From: Candidatus Nezhaarchaeota archaeon
GTDB taxonomy: Archaea > Thermoproteota > Methanomethylicia > Nezhaarchaeales > WYZ-LMO8
Assembly (NCBI GenBank): GCA_025059375.1
Contig: JANXDO010000001.1
Span: 108,575 to 172,574, forward strand
DNA length: 64,000 nucleotides
Direction: 5' to 3'
The position numbers were made by a program, and so were the translations under genes. The notes under the pieces were generated by a model. That model had not been told where the DNA came from. It saw only the letters and a list, made by a program, of their open reading frames with translations, and searched no databases. The first letter of the stretch is position 1. Every line of letters starts with the position of its first letter. Positions 1 through 11,350 of this stretch are shown one piece after another.

Positions 1-1058
1 ATGAAGTTCTTAGGCCTCTCAAACCACGCTATCCCCCAGCCCTTTGGCAACTCTAGTAATGTATCCACGTGTGGTGAATGATCTCCTTCACAAAATACAA
101 AACCTTTATAGCCCCTCTCCACGAGTGCCTCAATTATCTTCTTCAACAAAGGCCAGTAGAACTCATTGTATAGCTTTGGCGGTAACATTTCATTTAAATG
201 GAGTGGTATGAAGAAGAGCGTTAGTGGGGGTATTAGAGGAGTAGCAGTTGCAACCTTCATTATTGGCTCTACTAAGACCTCACAAGCCTTCTTAAAATCT
301 TCTGGATATCTCCTCATATCAAGCATGGCACCTGTTGGCTGTCTAAGGAAATCGCCGATAATGTCTGCAGGCGTGTAGGCGAACGTGATTGGGAACATGG
401 GGTTGCCCATACTCGCTATGTCCATGAACACTCTTTGCTGAAATGTTAACACTTGCTGCATTGCCAGTCCAACTCTTATCCAAGCACCATTCCATTGCGG
501 GGAAGCTGGGACCCCAAGACCTGGACAAGCCCTTGGAAGTATGGTCGTGTGCATGAACTCAAGAGGGCTCTCGACGAGCTTCTTGTACTCTTCAGGCTTC
601 ATGAATTCTCCTCCTATGAATTGTGGATATGCATCCTCTCTAAGCTCCCTGCCTGGCCACCTGCTCCACTTGTCCTTGATAACATCGTGAACAGGTCCTG
701 TAAGGAACCTAATAGTGTTTGAGAAATCTGGGAAATCAGAGAATGCTAATGCAAGGATGAAGCCTTCAAGCATCATTGGAACGAATATTATATTCCAGTC
801 ACTTGGAAAATCGTGTAGGTACTTTAAGACAGCTGTTCTAACTTTATCAGTTAAACTATATGAGAGCTCATGCCACGTGATCCCTGCATAACTACAGAGA
901 AAGTCACCACTTACGCCAGCGACAGGAACTCTATCGGGAACTTTAAGCTCCACAGCCTTTATGAACCTTTCAGCTTTCTCCTTGCCAACGACATCAGGCT
1001 CTTTATCGTGTCTTTCTATCCATAAGTCTATTAGTTGTTTTTCAGTTGGAATCAACAT
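1..1058 (-). CDS. URO-D family methyltransferase (partial, runs off the window)
   Basis: Translating the minus strand from the ATG at 1058 gives about 352 residues without a stop, so the C-terminus lies beyond position 1. The start is well supported: GGGAGGTGAA lies just upstream and the ATG overlaps the TAA of the corrinoid gene (TAATG). The protein begins MLIPTEKQLIDLW and near the cut end has FCEGDHSPH followed by ELPKGWG and WFERP, a pattern typical of uroporphyrinogen-decarboxylase-like proteins. In methanogens this family includes the methyltransferases that move methyl groups between corrinoid proteins and coenzyme M or substrates (MtaA/MtbA and relatives). Position directly after a cognate corrinoid protein supports a methyltransferase rather than haem synthesis. 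The substrate cannot be read from the sequence. Confidence 0.85.
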   Translation of the reverse strand, partial: MLIPTEKQLIDLWIERHDKEPDVVGKEKAERFIKAVELKVPDRVPVAGVSGDFLCSYAGITWHELSYSLTDKVRTAVLKYLHDFPSDWNIIFVPMMLEGFILALAFSDFPDFSNTIRFLTGPVHDVIKDKWSRWPGRELREDAYPQFIGGEFMKPEEYKKLVESPLEFMHTTILPRACPGLGVPASPQWNGAWIRVGLAMQQVLTFQQRVFMDIASMGNPMFPITFAYTPADIIGDFLRQPTGAMLDMRRYPEDFKKACEVLVEPIMKVATATPLIPPLTLFFIPLHLNEMLPPKLYNEFYWPLLKKIIEALVERGYKGFVFCEGDHSPHVDTLLELPKGWGIAWFERPKNF

Positions 1059-1708
1059 TATTCACCTCCCTTCTCTTTAATCCATTTTAGCATTATCTTA
1101 ACTCCTTGCGAAGCATCATTTGTCCAAGCATCTGCACCTACGTACTCACATGCATACTGGTCCACCCTCCCACCACCAATTATTATCTTCACCTTACTCC
1201 TTAACTCTGCATCCCTTATTGCATCTACCGTCCTCTTCATCGAATCTATAGCCAGGGTTAACAGTCCAGATAGCCCGACTATGTCGGGGTTATGCTGCTT
1301 TATTGCTTCAACAAACTTTTGTGGAAGTACATCAACTCCCAAATCTATTACTTCGAAGCCAGCTGCCTCAGCCATGGTCACGACAATGTCCTTGCCTATG
1401 TCGTGTATATCCCCTTCAACCGTCCCAATGACAACCTTCCCGATGACCTTCCTAGGTTTACCCAGTTCCATTAACCTTGACCTTGCTAGCCCCGATACCG
1501 CCTTCATTATCTCTCCTGCCATAACCAGGTCAGCGACAAAGAACTCTCCACTTTCAAATTTCTCGCCGACCTTTTCAGAAGCCACCTTTAAGTTCTCAAG
1601 GATTATTAACGGATCTTCCCCTGCATCGAGTCTAGCTCTAGCTAGCTCAATAGCTTTTTTCTCGTCGAGATCTATTATGCTCCTCACAAGTTCTTCTCGA
1701 GAAGACAT
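1058..1708 (-). CDS. Methyltransferase cognate corrinoid protein (MtaC/MttC type)
   Basis: This 216-residue protein has the two-part build of corrinoid proteins: a helical cap (about residues 1-88) and a Rossmann-like B12-binding domain (about 89-216). The cobalamin motif DxHxxG is present as D100-I-H102-D-I-G105, so His102 is the expected lower cobalt ligand. The later GLSGLLT and GGG motifs also fit. Length matches MtaC/MtbC/MttC-type proteins. It would carry a methyl group on its cobalt for the URO-D methyltransferase encoded directly downstream with overlapping stop and start. No substrate-specific first methyltransferase (MtaB, MtmB and so on) or corrinoid-activating RamA is visible here, so the methyl donor is unknown. 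Confidence 0.93.
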   Translation of the reverse strand: MSSREELVRSIIDLDEKKAIELARARLDAGEDPLIILENLKVASEKVGEKFESGEFFVADLVMAGEIMKAVSGLARSRLMELGKPRKVIGKVVIGTVEGDIHDIGKDIVVTMAEAAGFEVIDLGVDVLPQKFVEAIKQHNPDIVGLSGLLTLAIDSMKRTVDAIRDAELRSKVKIIIGGGRVDQYACEYVGADAWTNDASQGVKIMLKWIKEKGGE

Positions 1709-1939: not shown

Positions 1940-2383
1940 CTAAATGATGACTATCCTATTACCACCCATTCTTTTAGCTTTTTTAAGAGCTCTTAGAGCC
2001 ATAACTACTTCGGGACTCCTTTTAGCTTTATTAAGGCTTTGAGGTTTGAGTGAAGTTATGGGACCTACATAAACTCCTATGCTTATAGTAGCATTTGAGC
2101 CGCTTTCCCTCCCGACGTCTTCAATCTCGCGTCGAAGCTCCTCTAAGCTCTGTAAGAGCTCATTAAGGTCCACCTCAACGAACTTTATTATGGCCTCTTC
2201 AGTGCCGCGTTCCTCATCCAAGCCACCTATGATTGCCCCCCTAAATTTAGAAGCAAGCTGTTCTACTAAGCGAGTTAGATTACCAGTTATTACGTTCGGC
2301 TTATACTCAGTCCATCCCATGTTCCTAGTTATCTCCTTAAATCTATCAAGGTCAAGAACAACAGTGACACCTTTGACTTGCAA
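1940..2383 (-). CDS. Minimal GGDEF-like nucleotidyl cyclase-fold protein
   Basis: This 147-residue stand-alone protein shows, in the correct order, the marks of a GGDEF/palm cyclase domain: DLDRFKEI (residues 11-18, first metal site), GGLDEE (53-58, where GGDEF/GGEEF sits), ISIGVYVG (100-107) and a C-terminal KKAKRMGGNR (about 134-143). There is no sensor, membrane or receiver domain. Full bacterial diguanylate cyclase domains are about 160-170 residues, so this one is compact and resembles the minimal polymerase/cyclase domains (mCpol) described bioinformatically. Product (cyclic dinucleotide, cyclic mononucleotide or none) is unknown. It stands alone, divergent from the RNA methyltransferase at 2543. 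The fold assignment is from motifs only. Confidence 0.6.
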   Translation of the reverse strand: MQVKGVTVVLDLDRFKEITRNMGWTEYKPNVITGNLTRLVEQLASKFRGAIIGGLDEERGTEEAIIKFVEVDLNELLQSLEELRREIEDVGRESGSNATISIGVYVGPITSLKPQSLNKAKRSPEVVMALRALKKAKRMGGNRIVII

Positions 2384-7188: not shown

Positions 7189-8232
7189 TTGCTTAGAGAT
7201 AGAGACGCCCCCGTCACTATTGAAGGTATAATACTGAGGGTCTATGGCTATGATCACCCTCCGGGATGCTACATATGTGATGTAGAGTACGCACCTGAGC
7301 TAATATACAGAAGTCAAGTGCCTAAAGCTCAGAGGAATGGTAAGGTGAGGTACTACAAGTTCTACGAGGATGAGGGGCTAAAATTCGTTCTGACAAAATA
7401 TCCTCAATATACAATCTATTCTCCCATCCTCAACACAAGGATTGTCGCAATAAGGGAGGATCAAGCCATGGAGATCCGTAGACCGCACAATGGATTGCTA
7501 AGGCTGCTCAACAGGGGTGATGCGATGTCCAAAGCCTCATTAGAACTCCTAGACTTAATACTAAGTTGTTCCAAACTTAATTTGAGCTCCTTCGGCGTCT
7601 TTGGATCCCTTCTCCATGACTTCTACAGGATTGACTTGAGCGACTTGGACTTAACTATCTATGGCATGAGTGAGCTTAAGGAGTTGAGGGAAACATTAAA
7701 GGACTTGTACGGATCGTGCTCTCTACTCAATGAATTTGATGTGATCAAGGAGTCCAACATTTCAAGGTGGCGATTTAGAGGCTATGCCGTGAAAGAATAC
7801 ATATGGCATCAGCGCAGGAAGGAGGTCTATGGCATTTTACAATCTGTGAACTTAGGGAGGAAGGTAAAATTTGAGTTTGAACCTGTGCTAGAGTGGAGCG
7901 AGATATCTAATGAGTACGAGCACTTACTTGAAGTACACAACTTAGGCTTTGTGGAAGCTATTGTCAGGATAACTGATGATCGTTACGCGCCATACATGCC
8001 ATCAAAGTATGGCATAGAAGTTTTAGATCTACTAAAGGCTCCCGTCAAGGCCGAGCCGATTAGGATCGTTTCGTATGTCGAGGAGTTTAGAATGCAATTG
8101 TTTAAAGATGAAGTAGGTTTCGTAGCTGGCTGGCTTGAGGAGGTTCAAACGAGTAAGGGAAGCTTTCAACAAATAGTCTTAACCAGAAGAGAGAGGTACT
8201 ACGATCAAGTCCTTAAGTTGAAGGATATCTAA
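7189..8232 (+). CDS. Predicted nucleotidyltransferase (COG1665-like)
   Basis: The 347-residue protein has a polymerase-beta-type nucleotidyltransferase core near residues 137-160: FGSLLHDFYRIDLSDLDL, that is the GS motif followed by two metal-binding aspartates spaced DxD. The N-terminal 110 residues contain one CxxC-like pair (CYIC) and no recognised domain; the C-terminal part is also unassigned. Start is TTG, with AGGTGA just upstream. It follows the XPD-like helicase by 15 bases. Proteins of this kind are widespread in archaea without a known substrate. I infer no function beyond nucleotidyl transfer. Confidence 0.7.
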   Translation: MLRDRDAPVTIEGIILRVYGYDHPPGCYICDVEYAPELIYRSQVPKAQRNGKVRYYKFYEDEGLKFVLTKYPQYTIYSPILNTRIVAIREDQAMEIRRPHNGLLRLLNRGDAMSKASLELLDLILSCSKLNLSSFGVFGSLLHDFYRIDLSDLDLTIYGMSELKELRETLKDLYGSCSLLNEFDVIKESNISRWRFRGYAVKEYIWHQRRKEVYGILQSVNLGRKVKFEFEPVLEWSEISNEYEHLLEVHNLGFVEAIVRITDDRYAPYMPSKYGIEVLDLLKAPVKAEPIRIVSYVEEFRMQLFKDEVGFVAGWLEEVQTSKGSFQQIVLTRRERYYDQVLKLKDI

Positions 8233-8513
8233 GCTGCTTGAACTAAAGGCTTCCTAACAGTCGCAGTGGTACCATCAGCAATACCATGCCTTTTCATCTC
8301 ACTTGAATTAAGCCACACCTCGTTGATCGGCACAGCCTCACTTAAAACGACATTAAAGCGATATCTCTTCTTCCCGGCCAGCACGATTTCAAGCTTATCC
8401 GTTATACCGAGAAGCTCAGCTGTCTTAGGGTTAATCCTGGCAGACCCCTCATTTACCTCGTCCTTCTTACGTAGTTTTAATCTCTTCTCAACGACCATGC
8501 TGTTCACATCCAA
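8229..8513 (-). CDS. Small archaeal protein, possible beta-barrel fold
   Basis: This 94-residue protein has no catalytic motif. The stretch ARINPKTAELLGI followed by a beta-rich segment recalls double-psi beta-barrel or AbrB-like modules such as the N-domain of VAT/CDC48, but the match is only by eye. It overlaps the convergent nucleotidyltransferase gene by 4 bases. The ATG at 8513 sits about 27 bases from a clear TATA box, so the mRNA looks leaderless, which supports a real gene. Function unknown. Confidence 0.65.
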   Translation of the reverse strand: MDVNSMVVEKRLKLRKKDEVNEGSARINPKTAELLGITDKLEIVLAGKKRYRFNVVLSEAVPINEVWLNSSEMKRHGIADGTTATVRKPLVQAA

Positions 8514-8557: not shown

Positions 8558-10300
8558 CTACCGGCTTAGGCTGAAAAGATCCTTGATTGGCCCCACTAGC
8601 TCCTTCCTCCTAACGTATGCTTCTATGGTATCAGGCAGCTGTTGTATAGGGCACCTAACTTGCCTCCATGTGTCTCTATCCCTTATGGTGACGGTGCCGT
8701 CCTTGAGCGTCTGATTATCAATTGTTATTGCAAGTGGAATGCCCACTTCATCGGCCCTTGCATATCTCCTGCCTATGTATCCTGCCTCATCGTACTCCAC
8801 TATGATACCCCTCATCTTTAATAAGTTGTACACCTCCCTAGCTTTTTCTGGAAGCCCATCCCTACTTACGAGAGGTAGGACTACAGCCTCTATTGGGGCT
8901 ACGTCCGGCGGTAACGATAGTACAATTCTTCCCTCCTTTTCTCTATAGGCATGTTCTATTGCAGCATAAAGCAGCCTCTCCGCTCCAAAGGACGGTTCAG
9001 CAACAAACGGTATGAACTTTCTCCCCTTGACCTTCCTTCTAACCCTCTCAAATTTAACATGCTTAGCGTATATCCTGTACTTCCCCATCTCAAAGTAACT
9101 CTTACTGCTAATCTCCTCTTGAACTCTTTCTCCAGGCATCATTCTTATCGCGTGGATGACTTGGCTAGCCTCAACCCCATAATCTTCCTCAATAGCCTCT
9201 ATGACTGGCTTAACCTCCACTTCCTCTACATCCTCCTCGTTGGACATCCTCTTATATACTCTGAGATCCTCTCCGCTTACCGCCATGTGCCCTCTTAAGT
9301 CATAGTCTGTTCTAAATGCGTGTCCAGAGACTTCGACCCACCCCCACTTGTCCAGCTTCACAACTTGATCATACACTTGTGCTGCGTAGTGCGCTCTCTC
9401 CTGAGGTAGCTTAGCTATGAACATTTGCTTATCCCATGGAATCCCAAGGTCCTTAACAAACTTCTGTGCTGAGACCATGAAATATGCTAACCACTCACTT
9501 AAGACCAGCTTTTTATCCAAGGCCTCCCTGACCGTAATCTCCAAGGCCTCAAACCTCCTCTCTGCGACAAAGCTCTCAGGCACGAGCCTCAGAACCTCAC
9601 CCTTGTCTAAGACAGGACACGAGGGCTCTTGAGGGTCGTAGAAAAGCTCAAGTTCCATTATAGTAAATTCTCTGAGTCTAATCGGTCCCTGCCTTGGTGA
9701 TATTTCATTCCTCATAACCTTACCTATTTGTGCTATCCCTAAAGGTAGCTTATTCCTCATAACGCCGTAGACCTTATTAAAGGTGGTAAACATCCCTTGA
9801 GCAGCTTCAGGCCTAGCAAATCCTATATTCTCACTATACGGCCCTATAGTAGTTCTGAATAGTAGATTAAACCTCTTTACGTTACTTAGCTGACCTCCGC
9901 ACTCTGGGCATTTAACACCTTTCTCAATCATTATCGATGATAACTGCTCCTCACTCATGCCCTCAAGTCCTGAAAGTCCTGTCTGCTCCTCAATTAAGTG
10001 ATCTGCTCTAAACTTCCTGCCGCACTTTAAACACTCGGCGATGTAGTCCGTGAAGTGATGAACGTGTCCAGAGGCCTCAAAAACCTTATATGGTGTTATT
10101 ATAGGTGTCTCGATTTCGACTACGAAGTCTTGGTTCCTCAGTACAAACCAGTATCTCCACTTCTCCTCTATCTTCCTCTTAAGTAGCTTACCCAGGGGAC
10201 CCAAATCTAAGAATCCACTAACACCACCATAAAGCTCGGCCGAGATCCAGAAGAAGCCTCTTCTTCTTGCGAGCTCCATAACTTTGTCAGCTACACTCAT
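8558..10300 (-). CDS. glyS: Glycyl-tRNA synthetase, dimeric class II type
   Basis: The 580-residue protein has the features of archaeal/eukaryal alpha2 GlyRS: N-terminal VMELARRRGFFW, class II motif 1 region near residue 45-65, motif 2 around RNEISPRQGPIRLREF (near residue 200) and the C-terminal anticodon-binding domain after AEPSFGAERLLYA. A zinc-type pair CLKC and CPEC lies in the insertion between motifs 1 and 2. It charges tRNA-Gly. The ATG follows GAGGGTTGAGTA. The length is normal for the family. It is transcribed away from the small gene at 8229 and downstream of the MBL nuclease. Confidence 0.97.
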   Translation of the reverse strand: MSVADKVMELARRRGFFWISAELYGGVSGFLDLGPLGKLLKRKIEEKWRYWFVLRNQDFVVEIETPIITPYKVFEASGHVHHFTDYIAECLKCGRKFRADHLIEEQTGLSGLEGMSEEQLSSIMIEKGVKCPECGGQLSNVKRFNLLFRTTIGPYSENIGFARPEAAQGMFTTFNKVYGVMRNKLPLGIAQIGKVMRNEISPRQGPIRLREFTIMELELFYDPQEPSCPVLDKGEVLRLVPESFVAERRFEALEITVREALDKKLVLSEWLAYFMVSAQKFVKDLGIPWDKQMFIAKLPQERAHYAAQVYDQVVKLDKWGWVEVSGHAFRTDYDLRGHMAVSGEDLRVYKRMSNEEDVEEVEVKPVIEAIEEDYGVEASQVIHAIRMMPGERVQEEISSKSYFEMGKYRIYAKHVKFERVRRKVKGRKFIPFVAEPSFGAERLLYAAIEHAYREKEGRIVLSLPPDVAPIEAVVLPLVSRDGLPEKAREVYNLLKMRGIIVEYDEAGYIGRRYARADEVGIPLAITIDNQTLKDGTVTIRDRDTWRQVRCPIQQLPDTIEAYVRRKELVGPIKDLFSLSR

Positions 10301-10357
10301 TACTCAACCCTCTTCTCAGACTCGTGAGAGTGTGCAGCATTAACTATTAAATATGTC

Positions 10358-11350
10358 CTAGGGTAAAGCTACGGCCTCTATCTTTAGTCTCCTCTTTACC
10401 TCTCGAGCGAACACTTTTCCAAAGCCATCTCTACTATTATCGACAACTACAAATCTTGGCTTGCTACCTTCAACGTAAGCAAGGAGATTATTAAAGTCGC
10501 TATGACTACTTAGCGATACACGGTACAGATTCTTGGCCACCTTCCTATGAGTAGCTCCAAACTCCCACCCAGTTAAATGTATCTTCAGACCTTCAACCCC
10601 CTCACTAACCTTAGAGGCATGCTTAAAGAAGACGTAGCCTCCACGCCTCTTAAGTAATTCAACCCCCTCCCTAGTGTCCGCGTTGATAACATCTCTAGCA
10701 TCGACGCCGTGCTTTATGCAGGCCATAGTTAAATCATACATTTTTCCTTTAGCAAGGAATGGTGCTCTAACCCCACTCCTTCGCATGACTTCCATCACCT
10801 CCTGGACTTTACCATAAAAGCCATATACGTGGACTGGCTTCCTTTCCACTTCATCGCTCACTAACTTTATCAGGGCATTATACACTTCTTCTGTTGGAGG
10901 TCTCACGCACTTAGGATGACCGTAGGTTGCCTCTATTACGAGCACATCCGTCTCCACCACTGTTGCCCCTGGAAGTCTGAAATCACCCGTGTAGAGCGCT
11001 CGTCTACCTTCAGAATCCTCAACTAAGACTTGAGCTGAACCCGGTATGTGACCTGCAGGGTACAAAACCATGATCTCATCGTTGACCATAACAGGCTCTT
11101 TGTATCTCAACGGCATTACGCCCTCGGATCCTCTTCCGTAGAGCACATGCAGCACATCCCTAGTTATTGGTGTGGCATAGACAACCTTACACTTCACTAA
11201 GCTCTCCCTTAGACCGTAAATGTGATCGTGGTGGGCGTGAGTTACAACCCTTACATCTCTTCCATCTTCATGTGCATCACACACTATGTGGTTACCGAGA
11301 ATGATAGCCTTGCCCTTGGTCACACTTGCAGGAATCACGCGAGGCACCAA
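10358..11350 (-). CDS. Metallo-beta-lactamase fold nuclease (SNM1/CPSF73-like)
   Basis: The 330-residue protein has THAHHDHIYG (the HxHxDH zinc motif), a second histidine in PAGHIPGSAQ, the aspartate in YTGDF, and VLVIEATYGHP. These place it among MBL nucleases acting on nucleic acids (COG1236, SNM1/PSO2-like group, close to the so-called DNA ligase-associated exonucleases). The start is TTG 11350, or GTG 11347: a TATA box lies about 24 bases upstream and no ribosome binding site is seen, so the message is probably leaderless. No ligase or helicase partner is adjacent. DNA repair or RNA processing are both possible. Confidence 0.82.
   Translation of the reverse strand: MVPRVIPASVTKGKAIILGNHIVCDAHEDGRDVRVVTHAHHDHIYGLRESLVKCKVVYATPITRDVLHVLYGRGSEGVMPLRYKEPVMVNDEIMVLYPAGHIPGSAQVLVEDSEGRRALYTGDFRLPGATVVETDVLVIEATYGHPKCVRPPTEEVYNALIKLVSDEVERKPVHVYGFYGKVQEVMEVMRRSGVRAPFLAKGKMYDLTMACIKHGVDARDVINADTREGVELLKRRGGYVFFKHASKVSEGVEGLKIHLTGWEFGATHRKVAKNLYRVSLSSHSDFNNLLAYVEGSKPRFVVVDNSRDGFGKVFAREVKRRLKIEAVALP

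Follow-up and report, generated by a model that had tools for sequence, protein, structure and literature searches.

The window analysed here, a 64,000-nucleotide stretch of a Candidatus Nezhaarchaeota contig, carries on its minus strand a complete gene for a stand-alone GGDEF-like palm protein of 147 residues (1940-2383, from a TTG start to a TAG stop, stop codon included). TTG is the sole start codon near the N-terminus of the 151-codon open frame. An earlier note on this DNA had given exactly this position and length, and the four motifs that it named all occur in the protein: DLDRFKEI at residues 11-18, GGLDEE at 53-58, SIGVYVG at 101-107 and AKRMGGNR at 136-143. Compared with the nearest relative (71% protein identity), differences at codon positions 1, 2 and 3 number 38, 23 and 84 over 146 codons, with 60 codons purely synonymous and 43 changing the amino acid. 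This codon-position bias, together with the synonymous excess, identifies a translated gene under purifying selection. The best match in another genome (E 9.8e-68 in a protein search of 101 genomes) is likewise far from chance, and single-sequence searches of genome_contigs and of the PDB with the window protein gave nothing firm. The protein is a single domain with no fused sensor or regulatory domain, as the earlier note had it.

The family is more widespread than the word "rare", chosen there for its archaeal members, would suggest. A protein search of 101 genomes found it in 11, counting that of the window, and an alignment search found it in 36 of the phylum's 398 genomes and in 59 of the 147 genomes of one order (that of genome G078), with one match per genome among carriers. 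One copy (G285) has an internal stop and another (G018) is cut by a contig end. A pattern scan of genome_contigs, covering 84,980 species, returned 51 matches, 40 of them relatives and all of these titled as Thermoproteota lineages (Thermoprotei, Pyrodictiaceae, Acidilobaceae, Desulfurococcales, Sulfolobales, Methanomethylicota and others); being based on one short pattern, the scan does not prove absence elsewhere. Viral contigs, scanned with one pattern, yielded no relative. The family alignment comprises 60 members of 137-179 aa (with starts as chosen), and their tree groups them largely by taxonomy: the window protein has as its neighbours the relative from its own family and two further Methanomethylicia-type members, the Methanomethylicota member L028 stands apart, and support is poor in 19 of 57 inner branches. 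Of twelve genomes lacking the gene, three (G041, G127 and G132) have, upstream of tbp, the same clusters as two carriers (L040 and L052) in which the family gene lies directly behind tbp; relative to the carriers, these three gene-less genomes show the carriers' clusters with one extra open frame. Together, the taxonomy-like tree and the shared clusters upstream of tbp point to a largely vertical inheritance with losses. The family is a coherent one, inherited and conserved in Thermoproteota; it has a signature of its own and lies outside the definition of a diguanylate cyclase.

That signature emerges from residue counts over the 60 aligned members, with PleD equivalences established by two alignment methods. 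Twelve residues are invariant (60/60): D11, D13, N30, T33, L36, G54, R59, G60, T61, E62, E63 and K137. At the end of strand 1, DLDRF (residues 11-15; 2339-2353, minus strand) contributes D11, which aligns with the metal-binding D327 of PleD, and D13. The start of helix 2 holds PNxxTGxL (residues 29-36; 2276-2299, minus strand), whose N30 aligns with the guanine-binding D344 of PleD. In the hairpin between strands 2 and 3, GLDEERGTEE (residues 54-63; 2195-2224, minus strand) ends in the invariant run from R59 to E63. Here the earlier note had taken GGLDEE for the catalytic hairpin; both methods instead align the RGTEE that follows it (59-63) with GG[DE]EF, as G-T-E-E-A and with six extra hairpin residues before it, so that E62 aligns with the metal-binding E370 of PleD. 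GTEE is present in all 60 members and is followed by A, V, T or I, never by F, and near-invariance within GGLDEE is limited to G54 (60/60), L55 (58/60) and D56 (55/60). SIGVYVG, for its part, reads otherwise in most of the family members listed, which leaves both motifs as weak evidence even though all four do occur. Towards the C-terminus, AKRMGGNR (residues 136-143; 1955-1978, minus strand) supplies K137, the counterpart of PleD K442, and G141 (58/60), which occupies the position of the phosphate-binding R446. Residues 117-125 (2009-2035, minus strand) cover a stretch that mostly reads RREAY in the family (R117 54/60, R118 55/60, E119 44/60, A120 59/60, Y121 56/60) and LNKAK at 117-121 in the window protein. 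RREAY is missing from its nearest relative too, which makes other members more typical of the family than the window copy.

Judged from this alignment, the metal-binding acids are at their expected places, and the metal-binding aspartate that the earlier note had looked for has its counterpart in D11, with E62 alongside it, each invariant at its aligned position. The longer hairpin could position the acids differently. The predicted base pocket is not that of a diguanylate cyclase. The eight E. coli enzymes of this kind that were aligned all keep the DxD aspartates, the K332-type lysine, N335, D344, GG[DE]EF and K442; in the family, the N335 position is V in 40 members, T in 14, I in 3, M in 2 and A in 1, with Asn in none of the 60, the D344 position is Asn throughout, and a lysine stands at the K332 position in only 7 of 60. 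The arginine at R446 is kept by only five of the eight E. coli enzymes, so its loss alone says little. According to the parts of a study that deal with residue roles in PleD, D327 binds metal, K332 binds via its main chain, and a change of D344 to Ser is linked to cGAMP synthesis (PMC7288161). In mCpol, passages of two reports have Ser30 and Asn34 contacting adenine and S30N moving the product towards 3',2'-cGAMP (PMC12657218, PMC12657230). As its base pocket differs from theirs, the product of the family is probably not c-di-GMP.

Structure prediction bears out the palm-cyclase fold that the earlier note had expected. The AlphaFold model of the window protein (pLDDT 96.2, pTM 0.90, with the 60-row alignment as input) has the element order strand-helix-helix-strand-strand-helix-strand-helix-strand, and a second model, of a member 41% identical to the window protein, reaches a pLDDT of 96.9. 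By Foldseek and VIA-align, the window model matches the GGDEF domain of DosC first (E 5.5e-7, Z 14.0, rmsd 2.8 over 128 residues), followed by the class III adenylyl cyclase 5d0e (chain B; Z 13.9, rmsd 2.6, 126 residues) and mCpol 9mnr (Z 13.5, rmsd 2.5, 111 residues). For the second model, 5d0e comes first with a Z of 12.7, then GGDEF with 12.6, mCpol (9mnr) with 12.2 and Cas10 with 11.9. Since the GGDEF, class III and mCpol scores are tied, the modelled fold is the palm common to all three and chooses no branch within the palm-cyclase group.

What company does the gene keep? In the window, a corrinoid (B12-binding) protein lies beside a URO-D family protein at 3-1708 (minus strand), on the same strand as the 1940-2383 gene and downstream of it, and this gene is flanked on its opposite side by an RsmB-type methyltransferase. 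The methyl-transfer genes that the earlier note had seen next to it are thus indeed there, but corrinoid, URO-D or RsmB-like genes occur near the family gene in 0 of 46 relatives' loci (several of them short), making them local neighbours. Further along the window, a 347-aa protein encoded at 7189-8232 (plus strand) has no Pfam or NCBIfam match and carries a GS...DLDLTIYG motif, which we take to be nucleotidyltransferase-like; relatives of it occur near the same family gene at L014 (49% identity) and, weakly, at L025, and it is weakly similar (pairwise E 1e-4) to a 312-aa Pyrodictiaceae protein a few genes off. Next to it, 8229-8513 (minus strand) encodes a stand-alone protein of 94 aa with a PF01568 molybdopterin dinucleotide binding domain (27.1 bits against a cut-off of 26.8).

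Across the relatives' loci, a calcineurin-like phosphoesterase forms the neighbour cluster met most often, in 19 of 45; TBP (16) comes next, then a glutamate dehydrogenase and a radical SAM protein (11 each), and the recognised neighbours are mostly housekeeping genes. Immediate neighbours lie on the other strand in 57 of 77 cases, a count that is approximate because context genes were called as the longest open frame, a procedure that missed the family gene itself in 5 of 45 loci and called an antisense frame over the corrinoid gene of the window. The duplicate loci L013, L015, L018 and L020 were dropped, and several of the loci come from near-identical species. In 16 of 40 loci TBP is no more than two genes away, and in 14 it adjoins the family gene, in three arrangements; tbp lies directly downstream of the family gene in both Aeropyrum-like genomes. 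In one of these loci (L155, presumed Aeropyrum pernix), the family gene immediately precedes tbp, with 97 bases between the two and both on one strand (9053-10370, minus strand), a possible transcription unit. We do not read a functional link to TBP from this proximity, as old synteny with loss can explain it. In a Methanomethylicota locus (L024, 8397-11034, plus strand), the family gene lies between TGT and PHP-domain genes on the same strand, with the called frames touching or overlapping.

The neighbour set, which excludes frames below 70 aa, counts 146 proteins, of which 99 were scanned; the 47 others are mostly repeats of included types, along with some large proteins that have no representative. 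No CARF, SAVED or 2TM-beta effector was recognised among these 99 of 146 proteins (best 25 of 99 Pfam and 25 of 42 PADLOC families). Two neighbours gave weak matches to CARF models (best E 2.9e-6), and ten candidates scanned singly gave none. The SAVED model was silent in all 36 carriers and in the control as well, which makes that search uninformative. A defence context, then, was looked for and not recognised, the neighbours' PADLOC matches resembling generic helicase, HTH and radical SAM matches. Among the family members themselves, PADLOC and PHROG matches are weak and scattered: no model is matched by more than 2 of the 60, and the Cas2 and CARF models among them reach E values of 0.0019 and 0.0053 or worse. 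The neighbour and carrier-genome scans identified no receptor, effector or degrading enzyme for a product.

What might such a protein do? The reading that we prefer, and to which we give a probability of about 0.5, is that of an active, dimeric, metal-dependent nucleotidyl cyclase built as a free-standing single palm domain. Catalysis, dimer, substrate and product are what we infer here from fold and conserved residues. The substrates of a homodimer would be nucleoside triphosphates, D11 and E62 (with E63 next to the latter) would hold divalent metals, and K137 would sit on the phosphates; a ribose hydroxyl would attack the alpha-phosphate of another (or the same) nucleotide, and pyrophosphate would be released. 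Such a reaction might yield a cyclic mono- or dinucleotide, or a different kind of nucleotidyl product, and with no fused regulatory domain the activity would probably be constitutive or set by substrate level. The cyclase-type structural matches, the invariant residues, the match to a GGDEF profile, the single copy and the taxonomy-like tree all argue for such a cyclase, as does a 2010 prediction of activity for MK0296-type archaeal proteins (PMC2904730). The glycine at R446, the scarcity of lysine at K332, the longer hairpin and the failure of the scans to identify a receptor, effector or degrading enzyme argue against it, and so do a 2005 verdict that archaeal GGDEF-like ORFs are probably inactive (PMC1183210), the doubt of the 2010 authors that they signal, and the negative result for three cyclic dinucleotides in Sulfolobus acidocaldarius (PMC8646023). 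A bolder version would give the hyperthermophiles of the Thermoproteota an ancestral, constitutive messenger synthase of their own, a stand-alone palm cyclase with the GTEE signature whose product, a cyclic di- or mononucleotide distinct from c-di-GMP, would act as a housekeeping signal with no tie to CRISPR, CBASS or the c-di-GMP system of bacteria; this we offer tentatively, as a possibility that we lean against.

Sequence profiles bear on two of the rival explanations. The best of them are those of diguanylate cyclases, which would argue for a canonical enzyme making c-di-GMP: TIGR00254 matches the window protein at E 1.7e-5, the family profile finds the GGDEF domain 3ign at E 4.7e-4 and 7e6g at 0.011 (behind designed TIM barrels, taken as spurious), and a single pairwise hhalign comparison of the family with the eight E. 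coli diguanylate cyclases gives 95.5% (E 1.5e-8). Yet the window protein scores below the curated cut-offs (24.6 bits against 37.4 for TIGR00254, and 13.9 against 23.8 for PF00990, the Pfam GGDEF model), TIGR00254 matches 6 of 60 members at E up to 0.01 and PF00990 only 5 of 60 at E up to 1, and neither the guanine-reading Asn and Asp nor the arginine at R446 is kept. At E 0.01, PF00990 has no match in 36 of 36 carriers as compared to 8 of 14 control genomes, a result that concerns canonical GGDEF proteins only, as this search misses the family itself. EAL domains, too, have no match above cut-off in the 36 carriers, the window genome showing one sub-threshold fragment with an internal stop (19 against 31.3 bits). 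The lack of both canonical GGDEF and EAL in carriers speaks against c-di-GMP, and signature, cut-offs, base-reading residues and EAL absence jointly led us to reject the canonical identity, which we regard as very improbable. A second rival, unlikely in our view and still the one to be taken most seriously, is an enzyme of nucleotide metabolism whose palm and pair of metals would, as in GTP cyclohydrolase III, serve biosynthesis by hydrolysing or opening a nucleotide. It would suit a gene that is present once per genome, is passed on mainly by vertical descent and has recognised neighbours that are mostly housekeeping and mostly on the opposite strand. The PDB matches of the second model include GTP cyclohydrolase III of M. 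jannaschii (2qv6; Foldseek E 6.8e-4), which is not among the best 50 VIA-align matches of either model. Against it, hhalign of the family with the two domains of GTP cyclohydrolase III gives only 2.8% and 7.4% (20 sequences, L093-L096 left out), PF05165 is not among the best 25 of 32 Pfam families for the 60 members, and a true GTP cyclohydrolase III is also present in 5 of 11 carriers (among the 101 genomes, the window's included), so that a simple replacement does not fit. Profile comparison and coexistence in the same genomes led us to reject GTP cyclohydrolase III itself, and the sequence comparison weakly favours GGDEF over it.

Somewhat less likely still would be a palm domain that has degenerated and lost catalysis, its role being to bind a nucleotide and so to regulate a partner. 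The equivalents of GG[DE]EF, N335, D344 and R446 are all changed, and the passages on such domains in one paper describe degenerate GGDEF domains that sense GTP (PMC7288161). Against this, the acids and the lysine, residues that decayed domains would usually be expected to lose, are invariant in 60 of 60 members. No constant partner gene was found either, even the most frequent neighbour cluster being confined to 19 of 45 loci. A Thg1-related nucleotidyltransferase, adding nucleotides to the end of RNA or tRNA, appears improbable. Its palm was proposed, in the relevant section of a 2010 analysis, to share an ancestor with GGDEF (PMC2904730), and two of ten singly examined neighbours, a TGT and an EMG1, act on RNA; however, a length of 137-179 aa would leave no room for the C-terminal Thg1 module as that section outlines it (PMC2904730). 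PF04446 occurs in 29 of the 147 genomes of the order, and the family is present in 17 of these 29 as compared to 42 of the 118 without Thg1. With an odds ratio of 2.6 favouring co-occurrence, this overlap led us to reject a replacement of Thg1.

To our knowledge, reviews treat GGDEF proteins as almost absent from archaea. The pertinent part of a 2018 survey lists one archaeal GGDEF domain (PMC5847659), and that of a 2021 paper more than 300 archaeal GGDEF BLAST hits, many in Asgard and DPANN archaea, along with the finding that Sulfolobus acidocaldarius gave no detectable signal for c-di-GMP, c-di-AMP or cGAMP (PMC8646023). In 2005, Galperin described MK0296 (Methanopyrus kandleri; UniProt Q8TYK1) and APE1864 (Aeropyrum pernix; Q9YAS9) as truncated GGDEF sequences and left them out of the tally of diguanylate cyclases, the census, where it turns to archaea, calling their GGDEF-like ORFs highly diverged and probably inactive (PMC1183210). 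Five years later, Anantharaman and colleagues, in the lines given to it, saw MK0296 as typical of a small archaeal GGDEF-related family with three acidic residues kept, and such proteins as predicted active enzymes, without signalling domains and unlikely to be signalling proteins (PMC2904730). APE1864 and MK0296 are probable relatives of the family, the latter likened to it by description only. One carrier (G137) is, we assume, A. pernix K1, and its family gene at ~1,178,354 lies about where gene number 1864 falls; this fits APE1864, circumstantially. The "largely undescribed" of the earlier note is mostly apt, though apparent members were named in 2005 (PMC1183210) and MK0296 again in 2010 (PMC2904730); we found no functional study of MK0296/APE1864-type archaeal proteins in the open-access literature searched.

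Why does this matter? Where the texts just cited mention them, early archaeal GGDEF-like proteins were set aside as truncated (PMC1183210) or once noted as probably active (PMC2904730); the present alignment of 60 members gives the family an invariant active site that lends itself to testing. Should the proteins be active, thermophilic archaea would have a nucleotide enzyme that had escaped recognition, possibly a messenger synthase, and the GGDEF, mCpol and Cas10 palms would be joined by another branch. The members of Pyrodictiaceae and Aeropyrum are short and should be heat-stable.

Among known systems, GTP cyclohydrolase III (PF05165) is likewise an archaeal palm-fold enzyme and acts on GTP, but it is a tandem double domain with open frames of 223-268 aa (n=20), unlike the single domain of the family, and the window genome has both genes. 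Class III adenylyl and guanylyl cyclases such as Ma1120 share a fold that is tied with GGDEF in both model comparisons (5d0e), and their Pfam family is not among the best 25 of 32 for the 60 members. With mCpol, the OptS protein of Panoptes, the family has in common a compact, stand-alone single palm domain, matched in structure by two members (9mnr); it differs in that no 2TM-beta or CARF partner was recognised among the neighbours scanned and its surroundings are mostly housekeeping. mCpol, according to the portions of two reports that describe it, makes its product constitutively (PMC12657230, PMC12657218). The alternatives posed in the earlier note, a diguanylate cyclase or an mCpol-type protein, both agree with the predicted palm fold; no mCpol-type partner was recognised among the neighbours scanned, and by sequence the family falls outside the diguanylate cyclases. 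Compared to the latter (PleD, DosC; PF00990), it is an archaeal protein with no attached domain, it has GTEEA for GG[DE]EF, six additional hairpin residues, other residues at the guanine contacts and a glycine at R446, and it shares with them the palm fold, the DxD of strand 1, the acidic hairpin and the lysine near the C-terminus.
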